Shown piece after piece: positions 1,731 to 37,852 of a stretch of 38,787 nucleotides of DNA (within the stretch, counting starts at the first letter, position 1; every line of letters starts with the position of its first letter). Under the pieces are notes generated by a model, which was not told where the DNA came from, searched no databases, and saw nothing but the letters and a program-made list of their open reading frames with translations. The DNA is from Thermoproteus sp. CP80 (lineage in GTDB: Archaea > Thermoproteota > Thermoprotei > Thermoproteales > Thermoproteaceae). Location of the stretch: contig NZ_LCWM02000014.1 in the NCBI RefSeq assembly GCF_002077075.2, positions 1 to 38,787 on the forward strand, written 5' to 3'. The translations under genes and the position numbers were made by a program.

Positions 1731-2564
1731 CTAAAATATTGCGACGATAACGCCCTGCGCCAGAAGAGCCACCAGCGTGGCTCCAAAGGCGGCGAGCGAG
1801 CCCCTGCGGAATAGTTGCCACTTGCCGTCTATGCACAGGACCGAGAGGACTATTAGGAGGGCCGTCGTGAGCGCTACGCCGGCCAGCAGGACATACATTC
1901 CGCTTGATGCCAGCGCATAGGATAGGTAGGCCCCGACCGCGGACGAGGCCAGCGCGAGGTAGGCGCCGAGGCCCGCCGCCCGCTCTGGGCCTAGAACCAT
2001 CGCGGCGGTCCTCACTCCAGCCGCCAGATCGCCCCGATAGTCTATGGCGGTCTTGACGAGCTCTCTGCCGAAGTTGGCGAGCAACGACGCCGCGAAGAGC
2101 AGCGCCAGATAGGCGTCTACGGCGCCCGCGGCCGCCATGCCGTACGGATAGACCATGGAGGTCAGGAAGGCCACTATGAAGTTGCCCACAAACGGTATGC
2201 GTTTGCCCCGCTCGTTGTAGAAAGCGCCGAGCGACGCCGCCGCTACGTATACAGCCAGGGCCTGCCAGGTCAGAAGGGACGCCAGCGCGAGGCCCGAGAG
2301 GTAGGACGCGACGGCCACGGCCTTGGCCGCCCCAAGGCTCACGGAGCCCGCCACCAGCGGCGCGTCCGGCCTATTTATTCTGTCCTCCTGCAGATTCGCT
2401 ACGTCGTTATGGGCGAACATGCCGGCCTCGGCGAGAAACGCGCTGATGCCCACCAGAGCCGACGTCAGCGGGCTTCTGCCGCCGGCGATGAGGTAGGAGG
2501 CCACGCTCGATATTGCGGTCAAGACGCCGTGTTCCCCCCTGATGAGCCGCCAGTACTGGCGCAC
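1731..2564 (-). CDS. UbiA-family prenyltransferase (likely digeranylgeranylglyceryl phosphate synthase)
   Basis: This 277-residue polytopic membrane protein starts with GTG at 2564. The two aspartate-rich UbiA motifs are clear: [15 protein letters not shown] near residues 52-66, and DYRGD in the second half ([12 protein letters not shown]). Around eight or nine hydrophobic segments fit the family. In archaea, UbiA members of this size commonly transfer geranylgeranyl to geranylgeranylglyceryl phosphate in ether-lipid synthesis; other UbiA enzymes act on quinone or heme precursors, so the exact substrate is inference. It is the first gene of an operon with the HAD hydrolase and is divergent from uL22, with which it shares one TATA element (2584-2594). 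The start was chosen because the TATA box lies 27 nt upstream. Confidence 0.85.
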
Positions 2565-2583
2565 GCCGTCACCGACGCTAAGA

Positions 2584-2594
2584 CTTATAAATAA
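2584..2594. promoter_or_regulatory. Shared bidirectional TATA box between ubiA-like gene and rpl22
   Basis: The element CTTATAAATAA reads as a good TATA box on both strands (TTATAAAT forward, TTTATAAG reverse). Its first T is 26 nt from the uL22 GTG at 2611 on the plus strand and 27 nt from the UbiA-family GTG at 2564 on the minus strand. The gap between the two starts is 46 bp, and no other TATA-like sequence is present in it. A single near-palindromic element therefore probably drives both leaderless transcripts. Confidence 0.6.
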
Positions 2595-2610
2595 TCCTAT
2601 ACCCGCCCCC

Positions 2611-3162
2611 GTGGCGAGGCTTCACTACAGCATGTCGGACGAGGATGTGATACAGCTGGTCTTCGAGAAATACGGGGTGAAGATCTCCGAGGATCAAATA
2701 GCGAGGGCCTACGGCAACGAGTTCAGGATGTCGTGGAAGAAATCGGTCGAGGTGGGGCGCTTCATAAAATACATGACGTTGAGGCAGGCGAGGCAGTGGC
2801 TTGAGGACACGGTCAGCCTGAAGAAGCCGATACCCCTCAGAAGGTTCACCAAGAAGCAGGCCCACCACGCGACGCCCTGGGGCAACTGGCCTGTGGCCAA
2901 ATGGCCCGTGAAGGTGGCGGAGAACTACCTAAGGGTGTTGGAGAATCTCGAGAACAACGCCAAGTTTAAGGGCCTCGACGTGGATAGAGTCGTGATAATA
3001 CACGCGGCGGCGCATAGGGGCATAACCATCAGGAACTATATGCCGAGAGCTTTCGGCAGATCTACGCCGTGGAACGAGCAGACCGTGAACATAGAGATCA
3101 TAGGCGTCGAGCTGCCCCAAGGCGTGGCGCCGAAGAGGCTTAAGCTCAAGGTGTTCAAGTAG
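2611..3162 (+). CDS. rpl22: Ribosomal protein uL22 (archaeal L22)
   Basis: The 183-residue product begins with the archaeal-type start ARLHYSM, reads through a GTG start at 2611, and contains the family core: [38 protein letters not shown], and the [19 protein letters not shown] tail hairpin that lines the exit tunnel. It binds 23S rRNA in the large ribosomal subunit. An open frame extends further upstream but the GTG gives the expected N-terminus and sits 26 nt after the TATA box. It is not inside a large ribosomal operon here, consistent with the scattered ribosomal protein genes of Thermoproteales. Confidence 0.93.
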
Positions 3163-6336: not shown

Positions 6337-7298
6337 GCTTTTTCGGCGCGCCAGTCGGTCAGAGAGACGACCTTCCTGCCCTTTAGCCCCATCACGTATG
6401 CGGTGGCCGACAGAGCCGCCGCCACTCCCTGCGCAGCGGCTATGACGGCCTGCTTGTAGGGGTATTGTATCACGTCGCCTGCGGCGAAGACGCCCGGCGT
6501 CTTTGTCCTGCCCTCCCAGTCGGCAATTATCTCGCCCCTATCGTTGAGGTCGACCAGATGCCTGACGAAGTCGGTCTTGGTGACGTAGCCGACCTCGACG
6601 AACACGGCGGCTACCTTCAGCTCCTGTACCTCGCCCGTCTTTCTATTCTTGACGGCGACCGCCTCGACCTTGTTGGCGCCCTTTATCTCGACCACCTCGC
6701 TGTTGGGCACCAAGACCGCCCTGCCGGCGCCGAGCACTGTCGACAAGAACTCCTCGTCCTGTATCGGCCTCTCCCCGGGGAATATCCAGTAGAACCTATT
6801 CGAGGTTGAGGAGAGAATGGTGGCGGGCTCTCTGGCCAAGTCGCCCCAGCTCACGAGCGCCACGTCTTGCCCCTTGAAGAACGGGGCGTCGCATATGGTG
6901 CAGTAGGAGACGCCCTTGTTCTTAAGCTTCGCCTCCCCCGGCACTCCCAATTCCCTCGGGGTCTTCCCGAACGCGAGTATTACGGCCAGCGTCCTATACT
7001 CATCGCCGCCGTAGGTCTTGACCTTGAAGATATTCCCCTCCTTCTCCACGCCGGTGACCTCGTCGAATATGACCTCGGCGCCGAACCGCTCGGCCTGTTG
7101 ATGCACCCTGGCCACAAGCTCGGGACCCGATATCTTCATTATGGCCGGGTAGTTCTCGACCAACGTGGTCATGTTCAGCTGACCCCCCACGTCCTTCGCC
7201 ACTACGAGAGTCCTAAGCCTCTGCCTCGCCGCGTACAGCGCGGCTGAGAATCCAGCTATTCCGCCTCCCACCACGACGACGTCGTAGTCGGCGTTCAT
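6333..7298 (-). CDS. Thioredoxin-reductase-like FAD flavoprotein lacking the NADPH motif
   Basis: The 321-residue protein has the N-terminal FAD-binding motif VVVGGGIAGFSAALYAA, the redox pair CTIC (C133 and C136) followed by DAPFF, and the second FAD motif GVFAAGDV. These place it in the thioredoxin reductase family. The usual NADPH-binding GxGxxA sequence after the CxxC is replaced by VALVSWGDLAREPATIL, and no HRRxxxR-type basic motif is present (YWIFPGERPIQDEEF instead). FAD and disulfide chemistry look intact, but the electron donor is probably not NADPH. Flavin thioredoxin reductases using ferredoxin or other donors are known in other lineages; which applies here is inference. No thioredoxin gene is adjacent. 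The promoter is weak (CTTCTTAAC region near 7325). Confidence 0.85.
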   Translation of the reverse strand: MNADYDVVVVGGGIAGFSAALYAARQRLRTLVVAKDVGGQLNMTTLVENYPAIMKISGPELVARVHQQAERFGAEVIFDEVTGVEKEGNIFKVKTYGGDEYRTLAVILAFGKTPRELGVPGEAKLKNKGVSYCTICDAPFFKGQDVALVSWGDLAREPATILSSTSNRFYWIFPGERPIQDEEFLSTVLGAGRAVLVPNSEVVEIKGANKVEAVAVKNRKTGEVQELKVAAVFVEVGYVTKTDFVRHLVDLNDRGEIIADWEGRTKTPGVFAAGDVIQYPYKQAVIAAAQGVAAALSATAYVMGLKGRKVVSLTDWRAEKA

Positions 7299-7368
7299 GG
7301 ACGTGTAGACGATGCGCAGTTAAGAAGTTAATGTCCGCAGACCCCAGCCGGGCCGCCCGGACGGCCCC

Positions 7369-7968
7369 CTAATGCCCCCCGTCCTGGGCCTGCTTGATCT
7401 TGCCTATACGTTCCTCCAGGGCCTTGAGGAGGTGTTGGTCGTCCTTCTCGTCGTTGGGGTACATGTACACCTCCTGCTCGGGCCTCACGCCGCCTCTCTC
7501 CTCGACGAAGTAGATGAGCCGGATTGGGTAGTCGTAGCCGGCCTTGCGGTACAGCATCCTCATGACCTTAGCCGCGAATGACCACTCGGCCTTCACCCTC
7601 CACTCGCCCCTCTTGAGGATGTGGCTCTTCAGCTCCACGATCTCCCTCCTGCCGTCCTCGTAGGATATGAGGAAATCGGCTTGGGCCGTCAGGACGGCGT
7701 CGCCTATCTTGGCCACCACAGGCGGCGCCTCCGAGACCTCCCTCACCCTCTTCGCCCAGGGGATCAACATCCTTATCTTGTTGAAGGCGCCGGAGTGGGG
7801 CTCGCCGTAGCTCTCTATGAAGGTCTTTAACGCCGCCACGGCGTCTTTCGCCTTAAGCAACATCAAGACTGCCCTCTCGAAGGCTCTGCCGTACCTAGAG
7901 CTAAGCTCGTCCGGCTTGGGCAAGCCCAAGGCGTCGCTGAGCCTCAGCCTCAATCTGCGTAGCGACAT
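7369..7968 (-). CDS. PD-(D/E)XK-type nuclease, possible restriction partner
   Basis: I choose the ATG at 7968 (199 residues), 25 nt from the TATA element; a TTG two codons upstream is the alternative. The core signature is ADFLISYEDGRREIVELKSH, with D98 and E112-x-K114, matching the D...ExK active site of PD-(D/E)XK nucleases; E31 in YGRAFERAV may supply the N-terminal acidic residue. The remainder is helical. The gene is head-to-head with an m5C DNA methyltransferase and shares a single TATA box with it. This arrangement suggests a restriction endonuclease, but a stand-alone housekeeping nuclease of the RecB/Cas4-like fold is equally possible from sequence alone. The C-terminus ends with charged helices. 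Confidence 0.65.
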   Translation of the reverse strand: MSLRRLRLRLSDALGLPKPDELSSRYGRAFERAVLMLLKAKDAVAALKTFIESYGEPHSGAFNKIRMLIPWAKRVREVSEAPPVVAKIGDAVLTAQADFLISYEDGRREIVELKSHILKRGEWRVKAEWSFAAKVMRMLYRKAGYDYPIRLIYFVEERGGVRPEQEVYMYPNDEKDDQHLLKALEERIGKIKQAQDGGH

Positions 7969-7985
7969 ACCCAACTAGGGATATC

Positions 7986-7995
7986 TATATAAAAA
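7986..7995. promoter_or_regulatory. Shared TATA box between nuclease and DNA methyltransferase
   Basis: TATATAAAAA at 7986-7995 reads forward as TATATAAA, whose first T is 28 nt before the methyltransferase GTG at 8014, and backward as TTTATATA, 25 nt before the nuclease ATG at 7968. The starts are separated by 45 bp. No second equally good TATA element is present, so one site probably sets both transcripts, which would keep nuclease and methyltransferase doses coupled. Confidence 0.55.
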
Positions 7996-8013
7996 GGTTA
8001 CTATAGATCCTCG

Positions 8014-8952
8014 GTGTATAACGTACTGGATCTATTCGCTGGAGGCGGAGGATTTTCGAGGGGGTTTGTAGATGCCGGCTTTAGGGCTGTGGTGGGGGTG
8101 GAAATCGACGCAGATGCGGCGAGGACGTACAGCTATAACTTCCCCGGCGCCGTCGTCCTGGAGGAGGACGTAGCCGCGATAACCTATAGGGATGTGGAAA
8201 GACATGGCGGCAGGATCGATATAGTGATAGGCGGGTCGCCCTGCGAGCCGTTTACGGCCACTAACCCGAGACGTATGGAGGATCCGCTGGACAGGCTCTA
8301 CACGGATCCCCTCGGCCAGTTGACTCTCCACTTCATAAGGCTTGTCGGCGAGCTGCAGCCCAAGGTATTCGTGCTGGAGAACGTGCCCGGCATAGCCCAA
8401 GGCCCGCTGAGGGAGGCCCTGGAGAGGGAGTTCAAGAGGGTGGGCTTTGATGAGATATATTTCAATATTTTATTTGCAGAAGACCATGGAGTACCTAGCC
8501 ATAGAGAAAGAGTATTTGTCTCTAACATAAAAATTACGCCCAGACGGGGCAAGCCGATGACGGTTAGACAAGCCCTAGCCGGCTTGCCGCCCGTGGATTC
8601 CGGCCTCCCGAACCACGAGACCGTGACGTTGAGCGCGTCGAAGGCGGAAAGGATAGCCGCCGTGAGGCCCGGAGAGGCGTTGATGAAATTCAGAGGGGCT
8701 TCTGGCACGTACGGAAACTACATAAGGCTCAGATGGGACGAGCCGGCCCCCACGGTGATGGGCAGCAGGCGGTTCATACATCCCGAGGAGAACAGGTTGC
8801 TCACGGTGAGGGAGCAGGCGAGGCTGATGGGCTTCCCCGACCACCACGTCTTCTTCGGGCCCAAGGACTCCCAGTTCAACCAAGTCGGCGAGGCCGTCCC
8901 GCCTCCGCTGGCGCAAGCCATCGCCGAGTACATCAAAGATATATTGCACTGA
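8014..8952 (+). CDS. DNA (cytosine-5) methyltransferase
   Basis: The 312-residue protein carries the ordered m5C methyltransferase motifs: I, DLFAGGGGFSRGF (residues 6-18); IV, GGSPCEPF with catalytic Cys77; VI, ENV (122-124); VIII, HRERVF (163-168); and X, QVGEAVPPPLAQAIAEYI near the C-terminus. The region between VIII and IX that carries target recognition is short, so the recognition site is probably short. GTG start at 8014 fits the TATA spacing. About 90 bp in the middle (8450-8537) switch to AT-ending codons, unlike the flanks, without breaking the frame. It is divergent from the PD-(D/E)XK nuclease gene and could be its protective partner; an orphan regulatory role is the alternative. 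Confidence 0.92.
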   Translation: MYNVLDLFAGGGGFSRGFVDAGFRAVVGVEIDADAARTYSYNFPGAVVLEEDVAAITYRDVERHGGRIDIVIGGSPCEPFTATNPRRMEDPLDRLYTDPLGQLTLHFIRLVGELQPKVFVLENVPGIAQGPLREALEREFKRVGFDEIYFNILFAEDHGVPSHRERVFVSNIKITPRRGKPMTVRQALAGLPPVDSGLPNHETVTLSASKAERIAAVRPGEALMKFRGASGTYGNYIRLRWDEPAPTVMGSRRFIHPEENRLLTVREQARLMGFPDHHVFFGPKDSQFNQVGEAVPPPLAQAIAEYIKDILH

Positions 8953-8964
8953 CGCCTCTCCGCA

Positions 8965-9963
8965 GTGCCCACGGTCGTCTGTCCGATATGCGGGCGGCCT
9001 ACGGATAGGCTCGTGGAGGGCATGTGCGAGAGTTGCTACCTGGAGAGACACCCAGTCCTCGAGATCAAGAGGTTCAACGTGGTCAAGTGCAGGTACTGCG
9101 GGGCGCTGTACGTTAGGGGGCGCTGGATAAGGCCGGGCAGAGAGAGCGAGAGAGCTCTGCTGGAGAGACTGCTCAGAGACAGCGTCAAGGCCGGCGGCAG
9201 GTTGCTCTCAGTGGACGTGGAGGCCAGCGGCGATAAGGTGGTCTACAGAATATCGGGCGTGGGGTCGCCCCACGAGCTCATAGAGCCGCGCCGGTTCTCG
9301 GCGCAATACATCGCCGACGTGGTCCTGGACGTGTGTCCCGACTGCAGGAGGAACATCTGGGGCTCTGAGAGAGGCCTCCTGAGGATCAAGGGGTTCCCCG
9401 ACGAGCTCGACGACAGGGATTTCGTCAAGATAGAGTCCATCTTGGAACATATAGCCTTCGAGGCGAGGGGCAAGAACCTCGGCTCGGTGATATCGGTGGA
9501 GCGCGTGGGCAGATCCCTAGAGATATCCACCACGGAGCCTAGGCTGGCCAGGCACATGGCCCATAGAATACACGAGATAGTCCCCAGCGACTACGTAGAG
9601 AGCTATAAGAAGTTGGGGAGGAGGAAAGACAGGGAGATCTACCACTACACGGCAACGGTCTATATAATAACCGTCAAGAAGGGCGATGTGGTGAAGAGGG
9701 GGTCTAGCCACTACCTAGTCCTCGACGTTGGGCGCGACGGCGTTTACGTCGTGGATATATCGAGCGGCGGCCGCGCGAGGATTCCGCTCCATCGATTCAC
9801 CGAGGTTAAGACCGAGAGGATCGGGACGGGCGTGAAGGGCGAGGTGAGGGGCGGCGTGTTCGCCGACACCGAGGGCAGAATAGAGGTGGACGCCGGCGGC
9901 TCCAGAGACGGCGCGGCGTATTACGTGGAGATAGGCGATAGGCGCTATATAGTTCCAATCTAG
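8965..9963 (+). CDS. nmd3: NMD3-family 60S/50S subunit export or maturation factor homologue
   Basis: The 332-residue protein starts with GTG at 8965, 12 nt after the methyltransferase stop. The N-terminus has repeated CxxC zinc-binding pairs: CPICG (C6, C9), CESC, CRYCG and later CPDCRR. The central part (EHIAFEARGKNLGSVISVERVGRSLEISTT, then HEIVPSDYVESYKKLGRRKDREIY) and the beta-rich C-terminus (GSSHYLVLDVGRDGVYVVD) match archaeal NMD3. In eukaryotes Nmd3 is an adaptor on the large ribosomal subunit; in archaea a role in large-subunit maturation is inferred from homology. The following 39 bp hold the promoter of the acetyltransferase gene. Confidence 0.88.
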   Translation: MPTVVCPICGRPTDRLVEGMCESCYLERHPVLEIKRFNVVKCRYCGALYVRGRWIRPGRESERALLERLLRDSVKAGGRLLSVDVEASGDKVVYRISGVGSPHELIEPRRFSAQYIADVVLDVCPDCRRNIWGSERGLLRIKGFPDELDDRDFVKIESILEHIAFEARGKNLGSVISVERVGRSLEISTTEPRLARHMAHRIHEIVPSDYVESYKKLGRRKDREIYHYTATVYIITVKKGDVVKRGSSHYLVLDVGRDGVYVVDISSGGRARIPLHRFTEVKTERIGTGVKGEVRGGVFADTEGRIEVDAGGSRDGAAYYVEIGDRRYIVPI

Positions 9964-10002
9964 ACGTAGCATTGCTTTAATACAGTTCTGGCGGTCCTTG
10001 CC

Positions 10003-10476
10003 ATGTATCCAAACATAGTGATCCGAGCCGCGCTGGAGAGCGATGTAGATGCTCTGGCCGACCTGATAGCCCGCCTGAAGAGGCTCAACGGCGAGTTCGA
10101 CCCCCTGCTTAAGCCGGCCGAAAACCTACTTGCGGCGTCCAAGGAATACGTGAAGTCGAAAATATCGTCCCCCAGCTCCGTCGTGCTTGTCGCCGAGGTG
10201 GACGGCAGAGCCGTAGGGGTTATAGTGGGCGACGTCGAGGACCGGCTCTTCTACGAGCCGAGGATGGCGGGCATAATAAGGGAGTTTTACGTGCTGCCGG
10301 AGTTTAGACGCAAGGGTCTGGGCAAGAGGATGATGTCGGAGGCCATGGACGCCCTGAGGCGCAAGGGCGCGCAGATGATCATGGCCGACTTCCCCGCTCT
10401 CAATGAAATAGCTATAGAATTCTATAAAAAGATGAACTTTAGACCTATTGAATCTATATATGCAAAAGAGGTATAG
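10003..10476 (+). CDS. GNAT-family N-acetyltransferase
   Basis: The 157-residue protein has the GNAT fold: N-terminal IRAALESDVDALADLIARL, the acetyl-CoA-binding motif A in IREFYVLPEFRRKGLGKRMMSEAMDAL (R/Q-x-x-G-x-G/A region), and motif B ALNEIAIEFYKKMNFRPI. ATG at 10003 lies 28 nt after a TATA-like CTTTAATAC. The acceptor could be an amine or a protein N-terminus and is not predictable. The last 25 codons are abruptly AT-rich and end in A/T, unlike the first part. The stop is only 3 nt from the convergent isocitrate dehydrogenase stop. Confidence 0.85.
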   Translation: MYPNIVIRAALESDVDALADLIARLKRLNGEFDPLLKPAENLLAASKEYVKSKISSPSSVVLVAEVDGRAVGVIVGDVEDRLFYEPRMAGIIREFYVLPEFRRKGLGKRMMSEAMDALRRKGAQMIMADFPALNEIAIEFYKKMNFRPIESIYAKEV

Positions 10477-10479
10477 TTT

Positions 10480-11799
10480 TTAGAGCTCAGTTTTTATTAT
10501 CTCGGCGACCTTTTCGGCGAACTCCTGGGTGCCTAGAACCTCCTTTACTACCTTCCTCTCCTCTTCGGTCATCTGCCTGGCCAGATCGCCGGTGAAGTAG
10601 CCCGCCTCGTAGGTCTTGCTGACGCCCTTAAGTATCATGTCGGCGGCCTCCCTCCATCCGATGAATCTGAAGAGCAGTTCAAGCGCCAGAATGGTGGCTG
10701 TAGGATTGACGTAGTTCTTGCCGGTGTACTTGGGGGCCGTGCCGTGGACCGGCTCGGCCATCATCCCCCAATCCCCTACGTCTATGCCGGGCGCTACGCC
10801 GAGGCCGCCCACCAAGCCGGCGGCCTCGTCGCTTACGTAGTCGCCGTTTAGGTTGGGCGCGAGAATCACGTCGTACTCCCCGGTGCGGGTGAGGAGTTGC
10901 TGGAGCATATTGTCGGCGATTCTGTCGTTGACGAGGACCTTGCCGGGCGGCACCTTCCCGCCGTACTGCGGCAGCTCCTCCTCGAGCACCACGTGGTCTC
11001 TGAACTCGGTCCTAGCGAGCTCGTAGGCCCAGTCCCTGAAGGCGCCCTCGGTGTACTTCTGGATATTGCCCTTATGCATTATGGTTACCGACCTCCTCTT
11101 GTTCTCGATCGCGAACTTCAACGCCAACCTCGCTATCCTCTGGGTGCCGAACTTGCTTATGGGCTTTATGCCTATCCCCGCGTCGTCTCTGATGTTCACC
11201 TTCAGCTCTCTCCTCAAGAAGTCGCGGAGCTTGGCCGCCTCAGGCGCGTTCCAAGGCCACTCTATGCCCATATACACATCCTCGGTGTTTTCCCTGAATA
11301 TAACGAGGTCCACCTTCTCCGGGTTCTTGAGGGGCGACGGCAGGCCCGGGAAATACTTCACAGGCCTTATATTCGCGTATAGGTCGAATATCTGCCTAAG
11401 CGTCACGTTCAAGCTCCGGAAGCCGCCGCCCACCGGAGTCTCCAGAGGAGCCTTCAGGAACACCCTGACCTTCTTGAGGACCTCCACGCTCTGGTCGGGC
11501 AACCTGCTCCCCAACAGCTTCTCCGCCTTGGAGCCCACAAGGACCTCGTACCACAGCACCCTGCGGGCTTTGCCGTACGCCTTCTCGACAGCGGCGTTGG
11601 CGACCTTTATAGCGGCGTAGGCCACCTCGGGCCCCGTCCCGTCGCCCTCTATGTAGCCTACCACGAGCCTATCCGGCACCTTGAGCTGGCCGGGCCCTGT
11701 GTAGACGACGTACTCGCCCTCGATAGGATCGGCGTACTTTCCGGCGTAGGCCTGTAGGTTGGGTATCTGCGACTTTATCTTCTCTAGGTAATCTGACAT
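10480..11799 (-). CDS. icd: Isocitrate dehydrogenase (probably NADP-dependent)
   Basis: The 439-residue protein matches prokaryotic isocitrate dehydrogenases: IEGDGTGPEVAYAAIKVANAAVEKAYG at the N-terminus, LKAPLETPVGGGFRSLNVTLRQIFDLYANIRPVKYF (substrate SxNxxLR-type motif), VIFRENTEDVYMGIEW, the metal-binding segment around LAPNLNGDYVSDEAAGLVGGLG, and HGTAPKYTGKNYVNP at the nucleotide site. The Lys-Tyr after HGTAP is typical of NADP-preferring enzymes. It converts isocitrate to 2-oxoglutarate in the citric acid cycle, which Thermoproteus uses oxidatively or reductively. ATG at 11799 is 26 nt from TTTAAAAG, consistent with a leaderless mRNA. It is monocistronic here. Confidence 0.93.
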   Translation of the reverse strand: MSDYLEKIKSQIPNLQAYAGKYADPIEGEYVVYTGPGQLKVPDRLVVGYIEGDGTGPEVAYAAIKVANAAVEKAYGKARRVLWYEVLVGSKAEKLLGSRLPDQSVEVLKKVRVFLKAPLETPVGGGFRSLNVTLRQIFDLYANIRPVKYFPGLPSPLKNPEKVDLVIFRENTEDVYMGIEWPWNAPEAAKLRDFLRRELKVNIRDDAGIGIKPISKFGTQRIARLALKFAIENKRRSVTIMHKGNIQKYTEGAFRDWAYELARTEFRDHVVLEEELPQYGGKVPPGKVLVNDRIADNMLQQLLTRTGEYDVILAPNLNGDYVSDEAAGLVGGLGVAPGIDVGDWGMMAEPVHGTAPKYTGKNYVNPTATILALELLFRFIGWREAADMILKGVSKTYEAGYFTGDLARQMTEEERKVVKEVLGTQEFAEKVAEIIKTEL

Positions 11800-12076
11800 G
11801 ACGGAAATCGTTTCGCTCTTTTAAATTCTTATCTTTCGTCTAGTGTGTCTCGAGTTAAACGACAAGATAGCATGGAGAGCTCAATATAAATAACTAGCAT
11901 TATAAAAATGTATTTTTCTAGGAAATAACGAAGAATTTTCATATTTATCGAATCGTACTAACTAAATATATAAAGCTCATGGCCGAGTAGGCCAATAACC
12001 ATACGCATGGGGCCTAGGCCGAGAGTTAAACATGCCGGCCCGGAGAAGCCCTAATATATCCGTTGCATAGACGTAT
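11800..12076. other. AT-rich intergenic region with two promoters and a possible small transcript
   Basis: This 277-bp gap contains the icd promoter (TTTAAAAG near 11818-11825, minus strand) and the TATA element of the downstream P-loop gene (TAATATATCC about 12052-12060, 25 nt from its GTG). Between them 11826-11970 is AT-rich and I see no gene. A further strong TATA box (AATATATAAAG, 11964-11974) points to a start near 11990, followed by about 65 nt that include a 15-codon open frame (12007-12054, MGPRPRVKHAGPEKP) and GC-rich self-complementary pieces. This may be a small RNA or a minigene; neither is proven. Confidence 0.4.
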
Positions 12077-16038: not shown

Positions 16039-16382
16039 ATATCACGTTAGATTTAATTTTCTTTATTTTTATTTTTAGTATAGGTTTATATGTTGTTTAC
16101 AAGATTGAGCATGATGTAAAGATCTTGAGGATCCTGAAGGCCTATCCCGTAGCGGCGAAGGTGAAGGGCGAGGGCCTTATCGACTTCTCCAACCTATCGG
16201 TTCTGATCAGGGATTACGACATAGAGTACTCGGTGGATGGGCCTGTCGACGTGGAGAGGGTGGGCGAGGGCGTATATAGGATAAGGGCCAAGTCGGGCGG
16301 CCGGGTGACGTTCAGGATAGTGGCTTACGGGAACTTCGACGAATACTCCGTGGAGAAGACCGTGGAGGTGCTAGGCGGATAG
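16035..16382 (+). CDS. Single-pass membrane protein with extracytoplasmic beta domain
   Basis: The 115-residue protein starts with ATG overlapping the previous stop (ATGA). Residues 5-25 form a transmembrane helix (DLIFFIFIFSIGLYVVY). The rest is beta-rich (SVDGPVDVERVGEGVYRIRAKSGGRVTFRIVAYG) and could be a small Ig-like domain. No catalytic motif is seen. The first 25 codons are strongly AT-rich, whereas the second half has the usual GC-ending codons. The end overlaps the convergent membrane protein gene by 12 nt. Confidence 0.7.
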   Translation: MNITLDLIFFIFIFSIGLYVVYKIEHDVKILRILKAYPVAAKVKGEGLIDFSNLSVLIRDYDIEYSVDGPVDVERVGEGVYRIRAKSGGRVTFRIVAYGNFDEYSVEKTVEVLGG

Positions 16383-16751
16383 GGTGCGCGACAGCCTGAA
16401 CACCTCGACGTCCCACGCCACGGCCGCCAGATAGAACGCTATATATGGGGCGGTGTCCCCGGCGATGGCGCCAGCTATGCCGGCCAGAGACGACAGGGCG
16501 AGCACGAGGCCCACGGAATCCACAAGCGCGATGAGGGGCACTATGACCACGTAGATCTCGGGCTCCCTCGCTATGGAGAGCACTAGGGAGGCTATGGCCG
16601 TTATCACTATGCCCACGACGGCTACTGGGTCCAACAAGAGCGTGGCGAAATATATCGCCAATACGGCGACGAATCTATATATGGCCAGGGATGCCAACAG
16701 CCTCTGCACGTCGGAGGTCGCGGAGGAGTATTTCAAGCTTTCCGGCCCCAT
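16371..16751 (-). CDS. Small multi-spanning membrane protein, unknown function
   Basis: I place the start at the ATG at 16751 (126 residues, MGPESLKYSSATSDVQRLLA), because a TATA box lies 23 nt upstream; the longer frame would run through that promoter. About three to four hydrophobic segments are seen: AIYRFVAVLAIYFATLLL, VAVVGIVITAIASLVLSIA, VVIVPLIALVDSVGLVLALSSLAGIAG and APYIAFYLAAVAW. No known motif is found. It is divergent from eL13, apparently sharing one TATA element. Confidence 0.7.
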   Translation of the reverse strand: MGPESLKYSSATSDVQRLLASLAIYRFVAVLAIYFATLLLDPVAVVGIVITAIASLVLSIAREPEIYVVIVPLIALVDSVGLVLALSSLAGIAGAIAGDTAPYIAFYLAAVAWDVEVFRLSRTLSA

Positions 16752-16765
16752 CGCGGCGGGGAATA

Positions 16766-16775
16766 CTTTATAAAT
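16766..16775. promoter_or_regulatory. Shared TATA box between membrane protein gene and rpl13e
   Basis: CTTTATAAAT reads as TTTATAAA on the plus strand, 28 nt before the eL13 ATG at 16795, and as TTTATAAAG on the minus strand, 23 nt before the membrane protein ATG at 16751. The gap between starts is 43 bp and contains no other TATA-like sequence. Confidence 0.5.
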
Positions 16776-16794: not shown

Positions 16795-17283
16795 ATGGTC
16801 GACGCCGCAGCGGCGACGCCGCCTCGACCGCTCGTGAGGGAACCCGCCGCCATAAGTAAAGGCGGAGTCGTCAAGTGGAGGACAGGCAGAGGGTTTTCAG
16901 CCGGCGAGGTGGAGAAGGCCGGCTTAACCGTGGAGCAGGCTAGGCTGCTCGGCCTCTACGTGGACGCCAGACGCAGGTCCGTCCACGAGGCCAACGTTCA
17001 GGCGCTTAGGGAATGGCTGGTCGAAATATTGGAGGGACGGGCAGCTCCCCCCAGGCCCAAGACCGCGGTATCGACGTCGATCAAGCCCAAGAGAGGGCGC
17101 GCATATAGGGGCCTAACCTCGGCGGGTAGGAGAGCCAGAGGCTTGTTGGGCGCTAGATATAAGGAGACCCACGCCAGGAAGTGGAAGAAGAAGGCGGCGG
17201 AGAGAGCCGCCAGGAAGCGGCACGAGGCGACCAAGGGCCTGGGCAATCTGCAGAGAATTTCAAAAATAATATATAAGAAATAA
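16795..17283 (+). CDS. rpl13e: Ribosomal protein eL13
   Basis: The 162-residue basic protein has the eL13 core GRGFSAGEVEKAGLTVEQARLLGLYVDARRRSVHEANVQAL, then a lysine/arginine-rich tail (RKWKKKAAERAARKRHEATKGLGN). eL13 is present in many crenarchaea and binds 23S rRNA in the large subunit. The ATG at 16795 is preferred from the TATA spacing; a GTG two codons earlier (16789) is possible. An N-terminal extension of about 20 residues precedes the conserved KWRTGRGF segment. The stop at 17281-17283 directly abuts the stop of the convergent regulator gene. Confidence 0.87.
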   Translation: MVDAAAATPPRPLVREPAAISKGGVVKWRTGRGFSAGEVEKAGLTVEQARLLGLYVDARRRSVHEANVQALREWLVEILEGRAAPPRPKTAVSTSIKPKRGRAYRGLTSAGRRARGLLGARYKETHARKWKKKAAERAARKRHEATKGLGNLQRISKIIYKK

Positions 17284-28466: not shown

Positions 28467-29123
28467 CGACAGCAGCTCGTCGAACGACCGGTCGTCGCGC
28501 CTGTCGGCGTACCTCCTGAGGGCCTCCAGAGGCGGCGAGAGGCCCAACGCCCTCAGCAGATTGGCGACCTGCGTGACGTTCTGCGCCTTCCCGAGACGGG
28601 CCGACTCGAAATCCAGAATGACGGCCCTCCCGCCCCGGACGACGAGCACGTGCCTCCCGGGTCTGGACAGCTCGCCGTGCGAGATCCCCGCCAGATCCAG
28701 CGCCCGCGCCTGTCTGAGCAGATCGGCCACAAGCCCGGCCCTCTCCTCAACTCCGGCGGCCCTCCACCACTCGGCGATGGGCACGCCCTCGACGTACTCC
28801 ATAACCAGCACGTCCCTGGTATATGCATACAGCCTAGGGCCTACGCCGGCTCTGTTGGCCATCTGGAGATGGCGGGCCTCGTCCAGCAGATGCGGCCTCT
28901 GGGCATCCCCCCTCCTTATCTTGCAGGCGTAGACGTCGCCGTAGGCGGATCTGCAGAGCACCACGACCCCGTTGTTGCCCTTGCCCAGAAGGCGCACGGG
29001 GCCCCACATCACGCCGCCGCCCAGCTCTGCCCTCAGGCCCAGCGAAGACAGCTGCATGGCCACCTCCGCCAGATGGGCCAGATCGCCGCCTATAGCCAGC
29101 GCAAGGGCCTCCCTCAACTTCAT
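28440..29123 (-). CDS. Atypical Ser/Thr protein kinase (COG2112-like)
   Basis: The 227-residue protein has a glycine-rich loop GKGNNGVVVL, the ATP-binding lysine in YACKIRRG, helix C glutamate DEARHLQMA, hinge VMEYVEGVPI, catalytic-loop HGELSRPGRHVLV and DFESA in place of DFG. The catalytic loop has E and H where classic kinases have D and N, as I recall for the archaeal COG2112 clade; activity is therefore likely but not certain. ATG at 29123 is head-to-head with the zinc-ribbon gene with only 23 bp between. Confidence 0.8.
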   Translation of the reverse strand: MKLREALALAIGGDLAHLAEVAMQLSSLGLRAELGGGVMWGPVRLLGKGNNGVVVLCRSAYGDVYACKIRRGDAQRPHLLDEARHLQMANRAGVGPRLYAYTRDVLVMEYVEGVPIAEWWRAAGVEERAGLVADLLRQARALDLAGISHGELSRPGRHVLVVRGGRAVILDFESARLGKAQNVTQVANLLRALGLSPPLEALRRYADRRDDRSFDELLSSFLGQLKR

Positions 29124-32044: not shown

Positions 32045-32176
32045 TGCCCTCCTGCCAGCACGCCGGTTTCCCGGGCCCTTGCGGAGCCCAGTACTCCCGC
32101 GCGCGGCGCCGGCCTTAGCTTCCGGGTTCTGACGAGTCCGGGCGAACACCGGCGCCTGTGGCCGGCTCAGAGGGCA
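32045..32176 (-). rRNA. rrf: 5S ribosomal RNA
   Basis: On the minus strand a 132-nt segment starts TGCCCTC and ends GAGGGCA, which pair as helix I. Inside are the universal 5S pieces CCGGACTCGT, GAACCCGGAAGCTAAG and GAGTACTGGGCTCCGC followed by AAGGGCCCGGGAAACCGG, all in order. This is unambiguous for an archaeal 5S. The ends are estimated from the pairing of helix I and could differ by a few nucleotides. It is not linked to 16S or 23S here, as usual in crenarchaea. Confidence 0.93.
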
Positions 32177-33851: not shown

Positions 33852-35794
33852 AGCCTGAGCTCCAACACGCCGAGCTTCCCGACGGTCGCCCTCCACCGCG
33901 GCGGCACCACCGTGGTCGAGTAGTCCTCGATTATCAACGCAGGCCCCCTCACCTCGAACCCCAGCGGCAATTCCTCCCTGACGTACACAGAGGCCTCAGT
34001 CCAGCCGTCGAAGTAGACCTCCTTCTCGGACGGCTCGGGGGAGCCGGACTTCGGAGGATCCCTGAGGCGCGGCTTGGCTCTCTTGACCACTGCGAAGACG
34101 CGGATCGTGACTATCTCAACGTCTCTGTCCAGCTTGAAGCCGTAAGTCGCCGCGTGCCTCTCCTCGAAGGCCTTCCTTATGGCGTCGCGGGACGCGTCGG
34201 CGCCGACGGGGACCGTGAGCTCCCATCCCTGGCCGGCGTAGCGCACGTCGGCGTATCTCAGGAAGTAGTCGGGGCTGTGCCTGGCGAGCCGCCTTTCCAG
34301 CTCCTCGAAGCCTGCCGCGGGGTCCCTGGGATACGCCATCCTCGCCTCGAACTTGAAGTCGGCCATCAACATGCCCAGCGACGTGAAGACGCCCGGCATG
34401 GGCGGTATGAGGACTCTGTTTACGCCCATCTCCTCCGCCACCTCCGCCGCATGCTGGGGCCCAGCTCCGCCGAAGGCCATCAGGGCGAACTGCGCGGGGT
34501 CCAAGCCCCTTTCAACCGTCACGAGCCTTATGGCGCGCGCCATCTCCAGGTCCACAAGCTTTATCGCAGACGCCGCCACGTCCACCGGGTCGCCCAACTT
34601 GGCGAGGGCCCTCTCTGCGGCCTCCACGTCCAGCCTCATGCGGCCGCCCGCGATCGCGCTGGGTATCCTCCCCAAGATCAGGTTGGCGTCCGTTATCGTC
34701 GGCTCGCTCCCGCCCCTGCCGTACGAGACGGGGCCCGGCTCCGCGCCCGCGCTTAGAGGCCCCACCCTGAGCGCGCCTCCGGCGTCCCTCCAGATTATGG
34801 TCCCGCCGCCCGCGGAAACCTCGGCGAGGTCCACGAAGGGGAACCTCACAGGATAGCCGGATCCCTTGACCGTCCTCCCCCTATGGCTCTCTCCTCCGAC
34901 CTCGTACTCGGTCGTTATGGCCGGCTCGAAGTCGACGACGGTGCCGGCCTTAGCGGTCGTGCCGCCCATATCGAAGGAGATCACGCGCCGCTCGCCCAGC
35001 ATCCTGGCAAGCTCCGCCGCCGCCACGACCCCAGCAGCCGGCCCCGACTCGACGAGCTGCACGGGCCTCCTGGCCGCCTCGTCGATGGTGATGAGGCCGC
35101 CCGAGCTGGCCATAGCGTAGATCCTTCCGCCGCGCGCCTTCACGTAGTCGTCCAGTTTAGCCAGGTACCTCCCCACGAGCGGCATCAACGCGGCGTTGAC
35201 CACAGCCGTGGAGAACCTCTCGTACTCCCTGGCCTCCCACGCCGCCTCGTAGGAGGCCGTCACGTACTCGAAATGCCTCCTCAACACGCCCGCCGCGGCC
35301 TCCTCGTTGGACGGGTTGGCGTAGGAGTGGAGGAAGCCCACGGCGACGCTGACGACGCCGGCGGACTTGGCCCTCCGCGCCAGCTCCTCGACCTCGCGGA
35401 GGTCCACCGCCCTCTCCACGGTCCCGTCCGGCAGAGTCCTCTCGTCGACCTCGAAGCGGAGCTCCCGCGGCACTATCTGCCTCGGCTTCTGGAAGTAGAG
35501 GTCGTACAGCCTGGGCCTGTTCTGCCTCCCTATCTCTATCACGTCTCGGAAGCCCCTCGTGGTGAAGAAGGCCACCTTGGGGAGCTCAAGCCCCACCTGG
35601 CCCAGCAGCGCGTTGGTGCCTATGGTGGACGCGTGGAGCACCTCAGAGAATTTGACCGACGAGAGGCCCTCGACGACCGCCCTCTCGGGCTCTCTGGGCG
35701 TCGTCAAGATCTTGAGCGTCTTTATCTCGCCGTCCCCGCCGACTATGACGAAGTCGGTAAAGGTGCCCCCCACGTCGACTCCAACCAGGCTCAT
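33848..35794 (-). CDS. hyuA: Hydantoinase A / oxoprolinase family protein (HyuA)
   Basis: The 648-residue protein starts with [20 protein letters not shown] (ASKHA-type ATP-binding), has [19 protein letters not shown], the second nucleotide loop [14 protein letters not shown] and [17 protein letters not shown], all HyuA hallmarks. It activates the cyclic amide with ATP. ATG at 35794 overlaps the transporter stop as ATGA, so transporter, hyuA and hyuB form one operon. Confidence 0.93.
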
Positions 35795-37065
35795 GTCCCT
35801 GCGGTGCTCAGCCCCCTGGGCCTATATGCGACCACCCCGAGGAGGCCTATCAGGGCGAGGGCCGCCAGATAGACGCCAGCCCAGATGCGGCCGTAGGGGA
35901 GGATGACCGTCATGATGTACGGCGCCGTGCTCGCAAGGACGGTATTGCCTATCTGGTAGGCTGACGAGACCCCCGTGTTCCTCACAAGCGTCGGGAATAT
36001 CTCAGCGAGATACGCCGCCTCGGGCGTGTAGACTATGCCGTGGGCGAGCCCGGTCAAGGCGACCAACGCCGTCAAGACCGCCGCGTTGGAAAGACCCTGT
36101 TCGACCAACAGGGCCGCTATTATGAACATGACGAACCCGACCGCTATGGGCACCACGTTGCCGAGACGCTCGGCGAAAAAGCCGCTGATGATCACCCCGA
36201 CTAGGTCTAGGACTGCGAACAGAATTATTATCGTGAATTTCTCGGCGGCCGATACCAGATTTATGGCGCTGGCCACGTTGGGGAGGAAAGTATTGCCGTA
36301 GTAGAACACGGCCCCGGCGGCTCCGGCCAGAAATATGCCGACAAGCAACGGCGCCCAGTGCCTGAGGAAGACGCCGCCTATCGGGTTCTCGGGCTTAGCG
36401 ACAGCGCGTCTGGCCTCGAGGTATTCGATAGTCTCGCCGAATCTAATCCTGAAGAGGATGCCTATGATGGCTATGATGAGGGATAGGAGAAACGCGATCC
36501 TCCAGCCCCACGCCGCCACGGCGCCGTTGCCCAGGGCTACGGTCAAGCCCAGCATGACGGCGGCCGCCAGCAGCAGGCCGAGAGGCACGCCGCTCTGGAC
36601 GAATAACATGAACAGACGCCGCCTCTTGACGTTTTCAAACAAGTAGTTGACCGCAGAGCCCCACTCGCCGCCGAGCGCCAGGCCCTGCAGAAGCCTCAAC
36701 GCGACGACGGTTATGATGGCGGCCGAACCCCAGGCCGAGTACGAAGGCACGGCGCCTATCAGCGCGGTGGCCAACCCAGCGAGAGTCAAGGTCCAGAACA
36801 TGGCTTGCCTCCTGCCGTAGCGGTCGCCAATGTATCCAAAGAGCAACGCCCCGATTGGACGCGCCAGATAGCCCAGGAAGAATGCGAGAAATACGCTGGC
36901 CAGCTCCGCCAGAGGGTTCTTGGAGGGGAAGAAGGCGGCGCCCACGTAGGTGGCCGCCACTACGAAGAGAAACGCGTCGTACCACTCCAGGAGAGTCCCC
37001 GACATGACTCCGGCCACGAGCCCCGGTCCCACCTTTAGACTCGGTCCCACCTTTGGTTGGGCCAT
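35791..37065 (-). CDS. MFS transporter, metabolite:H+ symporter type
   Basis: The 424-residue protein has twelve hydrophobic segments and the MHS-type signatures LEWYDAFLFVVAATYVGAAFFP, FGYIGDRYGRRQAMFWTLTLAG (loop 2-3 motif), LRLLQGLALGGEWGSAV, and a second-half ERLGNVVPIAVG. It is first in the operon with hyuA/hyuB and most likely imports their substrate, possibly an organic acid or cyclic amide. ATG at 37065. Confidence 0.88.
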   Translation of the reverse strand: MAQPKVGPSLKVGPGLVAGVMSGTLLEWYDAFLFVVAATYVGAAFFPSKNPLAELASVFLAFFLGYLARPIGALLFGYIGDRYGRRQAMFWTLTLAGLATALIGAVPSYSAWGSAAIITVVALRLLQGLALGGEWGSAVNYLFENVKRRRLFMLFVQSGVPLGLLLAAAVMLGLTVALGNGAVAAWGWRIAFLLSLIIAIIGILFRIRFGETIEYLEARRAVAKPENPIGGVFLRHWAPLLVGIFLAGAAGAVFYYGNTFLPNVASAINLVSAAEKFTIIILFAVLDLVGVIISGFFAERLGNVVPIAVGFVMFIIAALLVEQGLSNAAVLTALVALTGLAHGIVYTPEAAYLAEIFPTLVRNTGVSSAYQIGNTVLASTAPYIMTVILPYGRIWAGVYLAALALIGLLGVVAYRPRGLSTAGT

Positions 37066-37111: not shown

Positions 37112-37672
37112 ATGAATTTAGGTAGACCTAGGTCTCCCTTCAAATATATGGGGCTTATCGCCTCGGCGATCTTCTGGACAACGGCGGCCCTGTCCATAGC
37201 CGTCAACCCCTGGTTCGATTTCTTCAGGGACGCCTTCAGCGACCTAGGGGGGCCCGGCGCCGGCGACCCCTGGATCTACAACACGGGCTTGATCGTGGCG
37301 GCCGCATTCCTGGGACTTTTTTCGATGGACATAATAGCGTCTTCGTCCAACAAGCTGGAGGCGGTGGGCGGCGCCTATATATCCATATCGGCCGTCTTCC
37401 TCGCCTTGATAGGTATATACCACGCGGGCACCCGGCCTCACGTATTTGTCTCCACCTGGTTTTTCATACAGGCCTTCCTCGGCTTCTTGATATACGGGCT
37501 GGGCCTAGCCCTCGCCGGAGGGGAACGGCTCGGTCTGTCGTATGCGGCCGTATTCCTGGCCGCCCTGGCGGGCGCCCTAGCGGCGCCTTGGCCCTCGGCG
37601 GCCGCGTTGGAGGCGTACGAGATAGTGCTCCTCACGGCGGGAGCCGCCCTATATGTCGTGGGCCGTCGATAA
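37112..37672 (+). CDS. DUF998-family membrane protein
   Basis: The 186-residue protein has six hydrophobic segments. The family's early loop NPWFDFFRDAFSDLGGPGAGDPWIYNTGLI is present, as well as GIYHAGTRPHVFVSTWFFIQ. DUF998 proteins are membrane proteins of unknown function in archaea and bacteria. ATG at 37112. A hairpin follows 22 nt after the stop. Confidence 0.85.
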   Translation: MNLGRPRSPFKYMGLIASAIFWTTAALSIAVNPWFDFFRDAFSDLGGPGAGDPWIYNTGLIVAAAFLGLFSMDIIASSSNKLEAVGGAYISISAVFLALIGIYHAGTRPHVFVSTWFFIQAFLGFLIYGLGLALAGGERLGLSYAAVFLAALAGALAAPWPSAAALEAYEIVLLTAGAALYVVGRR

Positions 37673-37693
37673 AGCGCAGAGCCGTAGGGAGCC

Positions 37694-37717
37694 GGAGCCG
37701 CGCTCACAGCGGGCTCC
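37694..37717 (+). terminator. GC-rich hairpin after the DUF998 gene
   Basis: GGAGCC pairs with GGCTCC and, inside, CGCT with AGCG around a 3-nt CAC loop, with one bulged G. It starts 22 nt after the DUF998 stop. It may be a 3'-end stabiliser or attenuate readthrough; there is no adjacent T-run, so archaeal termination here is uncertain. The rest of 37718-37845 shows no gene. Confidence 0.35.
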
Positions 37718-37852
37718 GCGGCCCTCTCGGCGGCCGATCCTGCCGTATAGCTGGGCCGGCCGGGATAAAAGCGTTTCGCCGATCTGCTGAGCCAGTGCAC
37801 GGAGCTCCGAAAATCTTCGGTTAACATCGCTAATTGCGTGCACAAGTTTTTA

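Follow-up and report, generated by a model that had tools for sequence, protein, structure and literature searches.

In the 38,787-nucleotide stretch of Thermoproteus sp. CP80 DNA analysed here (the window), the regions between ubiA and uL22 (site 1), between a 199-aa protein and a C5 cytosine DNA methyltransferase (site 2) and, probably, between an MFS transporter and a DUF998 protein (site 4) are likely to be bidirectional core promoters, in which one TATA box would stand between two leaderless divergent genes; a fourth region, between a BphX-like gene and eL13 (site 3), is excluded from the set. This reading builds on the positions of the boxes, on a peak in the spacing of divergent genes, on the shift of this peak between lineages and on a spacing that is kept while the sequence changes, and from these we infer TBP/TFB occupancy of the common boxes and their activity in two directions. 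The sequences of all four sites stand where the initial annotation placed them, and its core idea (one TATA box for two leaderless genes, with a spacing set by geometry) passes a genome-wide sequence test in Thermoproteaceae.

The window, contig C60, comes from a draft genome of 1.56 Mb (77% complete) which, together with its nearest relatives (G001-G005), belongs to a single genus, Thermoproteus, of the family Thermoproteaceae (six Thermoproteus genomes in all). Sequence was sampled from this genome (550 kb), from G005, of the same genus (800 kb), from G012, of the same family (800 kb), and from G021, of the sister family f2 (400 kb). Gene calling relied on a hexamer model blind to promoters, the promoter model was trained solely on co-directional genes with >60 bp upstream, and the predicted start codons were used as a proxy for transcription starts. 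Additionally, palindromes of the form CAY-N-YTTATAAR-N-RTG were searched, independently of gene calls, in 19 Thermoproteaceae and 25 f2 genomes.

Upstream of co-directional genes, the A/T maximum lies at -26 to -21 in the CP80, G005 and G012 samples, and the promoter model places a BRE-like AA near -31 and the TATA centre 23.5 nt before the start codon in Thermoproteaceae. A TATA box ~24-26 nt before the start codon, with no space for a leader, was found in these same three genomes, and by this geometry the transcripts of Thermoproteus look leaderless. Promoter spacing should thus be visible as gene spacing since, with the TATA centre ~23.5 nt from each start codon, the gap imposed by a perfectly common box is 2 x 23.5 - 1 = 46 bp. 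For f2, where the TATA centre is placed at ~-25.5 to -26.5, the predicted gap is 50-52 bp.

The genome-wide peak near 45 bp that the initial annotation had anticipated is present in Thermoproteaceae. For pairs whose promoter-blind and promoter-aware starts coincide, the histogram of divergent gaps has its peak at 43-49 bp (pooled p = 0.001); the peak is stronger with promoter-aware starts and modest with promoter-blind starts alone (p = 0.018 pooled; not significant in the CP80 sample, which is too small, or in the G012 sample taken singly). With promoter-blind starts, a midpoint A/T box is present in 23/25 divergent pairs with gaps of 43-49 bp, against 20/98 of the remaining pairs with gaps of 29-77 bp (p = 4e-11); by class, it occurs in 11/22 pairs at 36-42 bp, in 7/11 at 50-56 bp and in 2/50 at 57-77 bp. 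The palindrome search gave, for gaps of 34, 42, 46, 50 and 58 bp, 2, 2, 23, 5 and 2 matches in Thermoproteaceae (~18 at 46 bp once orthologues were removed by eye) and 4, 5, 10, 22 and 14 in f2, a difference between the 46 and 50 bp classes with p = 9e-5. The f2 maximum at 50 bp is the one predicted from the TATA offset of that family, so the peak follows the TATA-to-start distance of each lineage. Nevertheless, the 43-46 bp spacing, which had been called fixed, was overstated: gaps with a common box cover ~40-52 bp, with a mode at 45-47. The arrangement recurs genome-wide above chance, but it makes up only ~10% of divergent pairs (40/410), common without being dominant. A special concentration in the window was also considered and set aside, as 3/9 divergent pairs against ~10% (p ~0.05) is not remarkable.

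Table 1. Genes and TATA elements at the four divergent sites, in window coordinates. L185 is a locus of Thermoproteus sp. UBA157 that agrees almost exactly in coordinates with G001, and L186 a locus of Thermoproteus sp. AZ2, apparently G004; genus g3 is probably Pyrobaculum.
Site	Feature	Position	Strand	Remarks
1	UbiA-family prenyltransferase (left gene)	1731..2564	-	Pfam UbiA 5e-27; start kept in Thermoproteus relatives
1	Putative common TATA box CTTATAAA	2584..2591	.	23.5 nt from both starts; exact match to the palindrome pattern
1	Ribosomal protein uL22, GTG start (right gene)	2611..3162	+	Pfam Ribosomal_L22 1.9e-23; aligns from residue 1 across the genus
2	199-aa protein, nuclease-like by eye only (left gene)	7369..7968	-	Orthologues in Thermoproteus and g3 genomes
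2	Putative common TATA box TATATAAAAA	7986..7995	.	Promoter calls on the two strands 2 bp apart; kept in G005, L185 and L186
2	C5 cytosine DNA methyltransferase, GTG start (right gene)	8014..8952	+	Pfam DNA_methylase 1.4e-47
3	Weak BphX-like match (left gene)	16371..16709	-	Start moved from 16751 to GTG 16709 (promoter-aware start); in G005, stops close the frame upstream
3	TATA-like box belonging to the minus-strand gene alone (plus-strand sequence TATTTCAAG)	16729..16737	-	DNA sequence kept in G005 despite a frame shift
3	TATA box TTTATAAA, eL13 gene only	16767..16774	+	24.5 nt before ATG 16795; kept in G005
3	Ribosomal protein eL13 (right gene)	16795..17283	+	Pfam Ribosomal_L13e 1.2e-9
4	MFS transporter (left gene)	35791..37065	-	Pfam MFS_1 3.4e-23; start kept in G005
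4	Candidate common TATA box TTTAAA	37085..37090	.	Distances to the two starts 22.5 and 24.5 nt; promoter calls on the two strands differ by 2 bp
4	DUF998 membrane protein (right gene)	37112..37672	+	Pfam DUF998 6.1e-22

A single TATA element midway between the divergent starts was found at sites 1, 2 and 4, and not at site 3 (Table 1). Of the four pairs to which a central TATA had been attributed, sites 1 and 2 are therefore retained as strong candidates for a common-TATA promoter and site 4 as a plausible one, while site 3 drops out. At site 1 (starts 2564 on the minus strand and 2611 on the plus strand, gap 46 bp), a gap of 46-47 bp, with the TATA calls of both strands on one centre, is found in all six Thermoproteus genomes and in G009, a member of the Pyrobaculum clade. 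In six other genomes (G010, G011, G018, G013, G016 and G007) the ubiA/uL22 pair has two boxes, 21-38 bp apart, and in G015 the box distance was called as 12 bp with a weak score.

At site 2 (starts 7968 and 8014, gap 45 bp), the gap is 44-46 bp in 5/6 Thermoproteus genomes (CP80 45, G005 44, G001 45, G004 46 and G002 45), the remaining one, G003, having ~980 bp, and the starts are kept across the relatives. The left-hand protein gave no family match in Pfam or NCBIfam. The methyltransferase is 50-60% identical to copies across Thermoproteota, and a scan of contigs with it returned just two further Thermoproteus loci. Relative to G005, a 5.7 kb segment of the window (6340-12036) is inverted, and the methyltransferase pair and its intact promoter have moved as a unit.

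Site 4 (starts 37065 and 37112, gap 46 bp) is probably a common-TATA promoter in the CP80 genome. Its DUF998 start is made plausible by the lack of an alternative start with a box at the right distance. The initial reading of this pair is not borne out in the closest relative, G005, which has no common box: the DUF998 frame starts elsewhere there, the gap is 69 bp and two boxes lie 22 bp apart. In G001 the MFS match is full length, and the adjoining DUF998 gene (C1:65758-66198; L183, L184) looks decayed, with several stops in its match. Just past the DUF998 gene, an Rfam match to the Pyrobaculum H/ACA sRNA PyrR209 occupies 37680-37744 on the minus strand; the window also contains a 5S ribosomal RNA gene (32050-32169, minus strand).

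Site 3 was rejected as a member because the start at 16751 on which it depended is unsupported, a start-codon error. This minus-strand ATG is not conserved; the G005 frame is interrupted by stop codons a short way upstream, which leaves the GTG corresponding to position 16709 of the window as the earliest start available. An element TATTTCAA, 24 nt from this GTG, is kept as DNA in G005 across the frame shift, and 16709 is very probably the true start of the gene, which would have a box of its own. This start gives a gap of 85 bp, with two TATA boxes ~38 bp apart; in G005 the gap is 93 bp, also with two boxes.

Among 37 divergent pairs called in both CP80 and G005, the gaps of those with a common box in both genomes differ by 0-2 bp (45/45, 45/45, 45/44, 48/49 and 45/47 bp, and 46/46 bp for ubiA/uL22), and in one of them (L013:1744) the flanks of the box have been largely replaced and the length is exactly 45 bp in both. 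This retention, together with that over seven species at site 1, speaks against the explanation that fares best among the alternatives, namely that the gap is simply the minimum room for two ordinary overlapping promoters and the common TBP site a by-product of compaction, with no coordination of the genes. Such an explanation accepts that the common box is real and disputes only that it is a favoured regulatory design; it is favoured by the lack of functional relation between the paired genes at sites 1 and 4, by the two-box form of orthologous pairs among relatives and by the ordinary TATA core (see below), and we give it somewhat less than an even chance. A kept spacing implies that the box must serve both genes and does not, by itself, show that they are coordinated. 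A second alternative, that the box serves one gene only, the other being read from a different site or in a longer transcript and the midpoint position being accidental, describes what site 3 turned out to be and could draw on the two boxes of site 4 in G005. As a general account it is improbable, given that the midpoint box is the sole A/T run of at least 6 in the gap of 14 of the 25 pairs at 43-49 bp, and that shuffling predicts 2.5 midpoint boxes where 23 were observed. Finally, starts picked 23-28 nt from an A/T stretch could themselves generate a spacing of ~46 bp, as promoter-aware calling can do and as happened at site 3, an artefact that is very improbable for the set as a whole because central boxes appear with promoter-blind starts and in the search without gene calls, and because the starts of sites 1 and 2 are kept across relatives.

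A more palindromic TATA box was rejected as the distinguishing mark of a promoter common to two genes: the TATA core is near-palindromic in all promoters, and that of common boxes is no more so than that of ordinary ones (2.12 vs 2.10 matched pairs of 4, p = 0.43). What seems to distinguish the common boxes, modestly, is a mirrored BRE-like flank. TT on the mirror side, at the position expected for the opposite BRE, is enriched among them (24/50 vs 110/412, p = 0.003; individual sites vary), and their own-side AA is similar to that of ordinary promoters. A comparison of reverse-strand scores was discarded as evidence, being biased by the selection of pairs. In the mechanism that we propose for the common boxes, TBP would bind the TATA box and TFB would dock on the BRE-like flank of either side, pointing RNA polymerase at one of the two genes; with TFB on one flank and the polymerase leaving one way per event, initiation towards one gene should preclude simultaneous initiation towards the other.

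Other divergent pairs of CP80 and G005 have other spacings. A second mode, at gaps of 64-73 bp, corresponds to two TATA boxes 20-23 bp apart and is kept in several orthologous pairs. The pair at 29123/29147 of the window has a gap of 23 bp in both genomes, which would put each predicted TATA at or beyond the start of the opposite gene (crossed boxes, with a centre distance of -25). It is conceivable, and we suggest it only tentatively, that divergent spacing in Thermoproteus is quantised, the boxes being either identical (centre distance of a few bp at most) or separated by 16 bp or more, mostly 20-23, and none at 9-15 bp. Distances of 9-15 bp occur in 0/196 Thermoproteus pairs vs 4/92 in G012, so this void is not general. 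Promoter pairs also appear to move between the one-box state and a two-box state of ~21 bp, as at ubiA/uL22 (Thermoproteus vs G010 and G011), site 4 (vs G005) and L013:358 (vs G005). If true, quantised spacing would reflect a steric constraint on how closely two TBP-TFB complexes can sit next to each other, and this constraint could be read from genome sequence.

Where transcripts are leaderless, the TBP sites that serve two genes should be recognisable from gene spacing by itself, which would yield sets of naturally occurring, conserved bidirectional promoters (one of them serving the genes of a ribosomal protein and of an enzyme unrelated to it) as material for measuring the choice of direction by BRE and TFB and the competition between directions. 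The same spacing provides a check on start-codon annotation, as illustrated by site 3. A literature search of limited coverage found no description of bidirectional promoters that serve two protein genes in leaderless Thermoproteales and show a spacing peak specific to the lineage.

Compared with the ordinary one-way leaderless promoters of Thermoproteaceae, the common boxes have an identical TATA core and the same 23.5-nt start distance, and differ in that the far side of the former is less rich in mirrored BRE-like sequence. Symmetry-driven divergent promoters have been described in bacteria and archaea (Warman et al. 2021, as presented in PMC12825309 and PMC10268837). According to these accounts, they resemble the present ones in that a single near-symmetric core element, in many cases located between divergent genes, drives transcription both ways, whereas the bacterial form uses a -10 element with start sites ~18 bp apart. 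The closest parallel is found in Pyrococcus furiosus, in which bidirectional BRE-TATA-BRE promoters, with the TATA midway and opposite start sites 49-50 bp apart, were shown in vitro (Grunberger et al. 2019, PMC6640164). The single central TATA is common to both organisms and the mirror-side TT enrichment reported here agrees with the BRE-TATA-BRE motif; however, the second transcript analysed in P. furiosus was mostly antisense RNA (PMC6640164), while in Thermoproteus both directions lead to protein genes. As bidirectional TATA promoters are thus known in archaea, the Thermoproteus examples would represent a conserved set built on a known principle.
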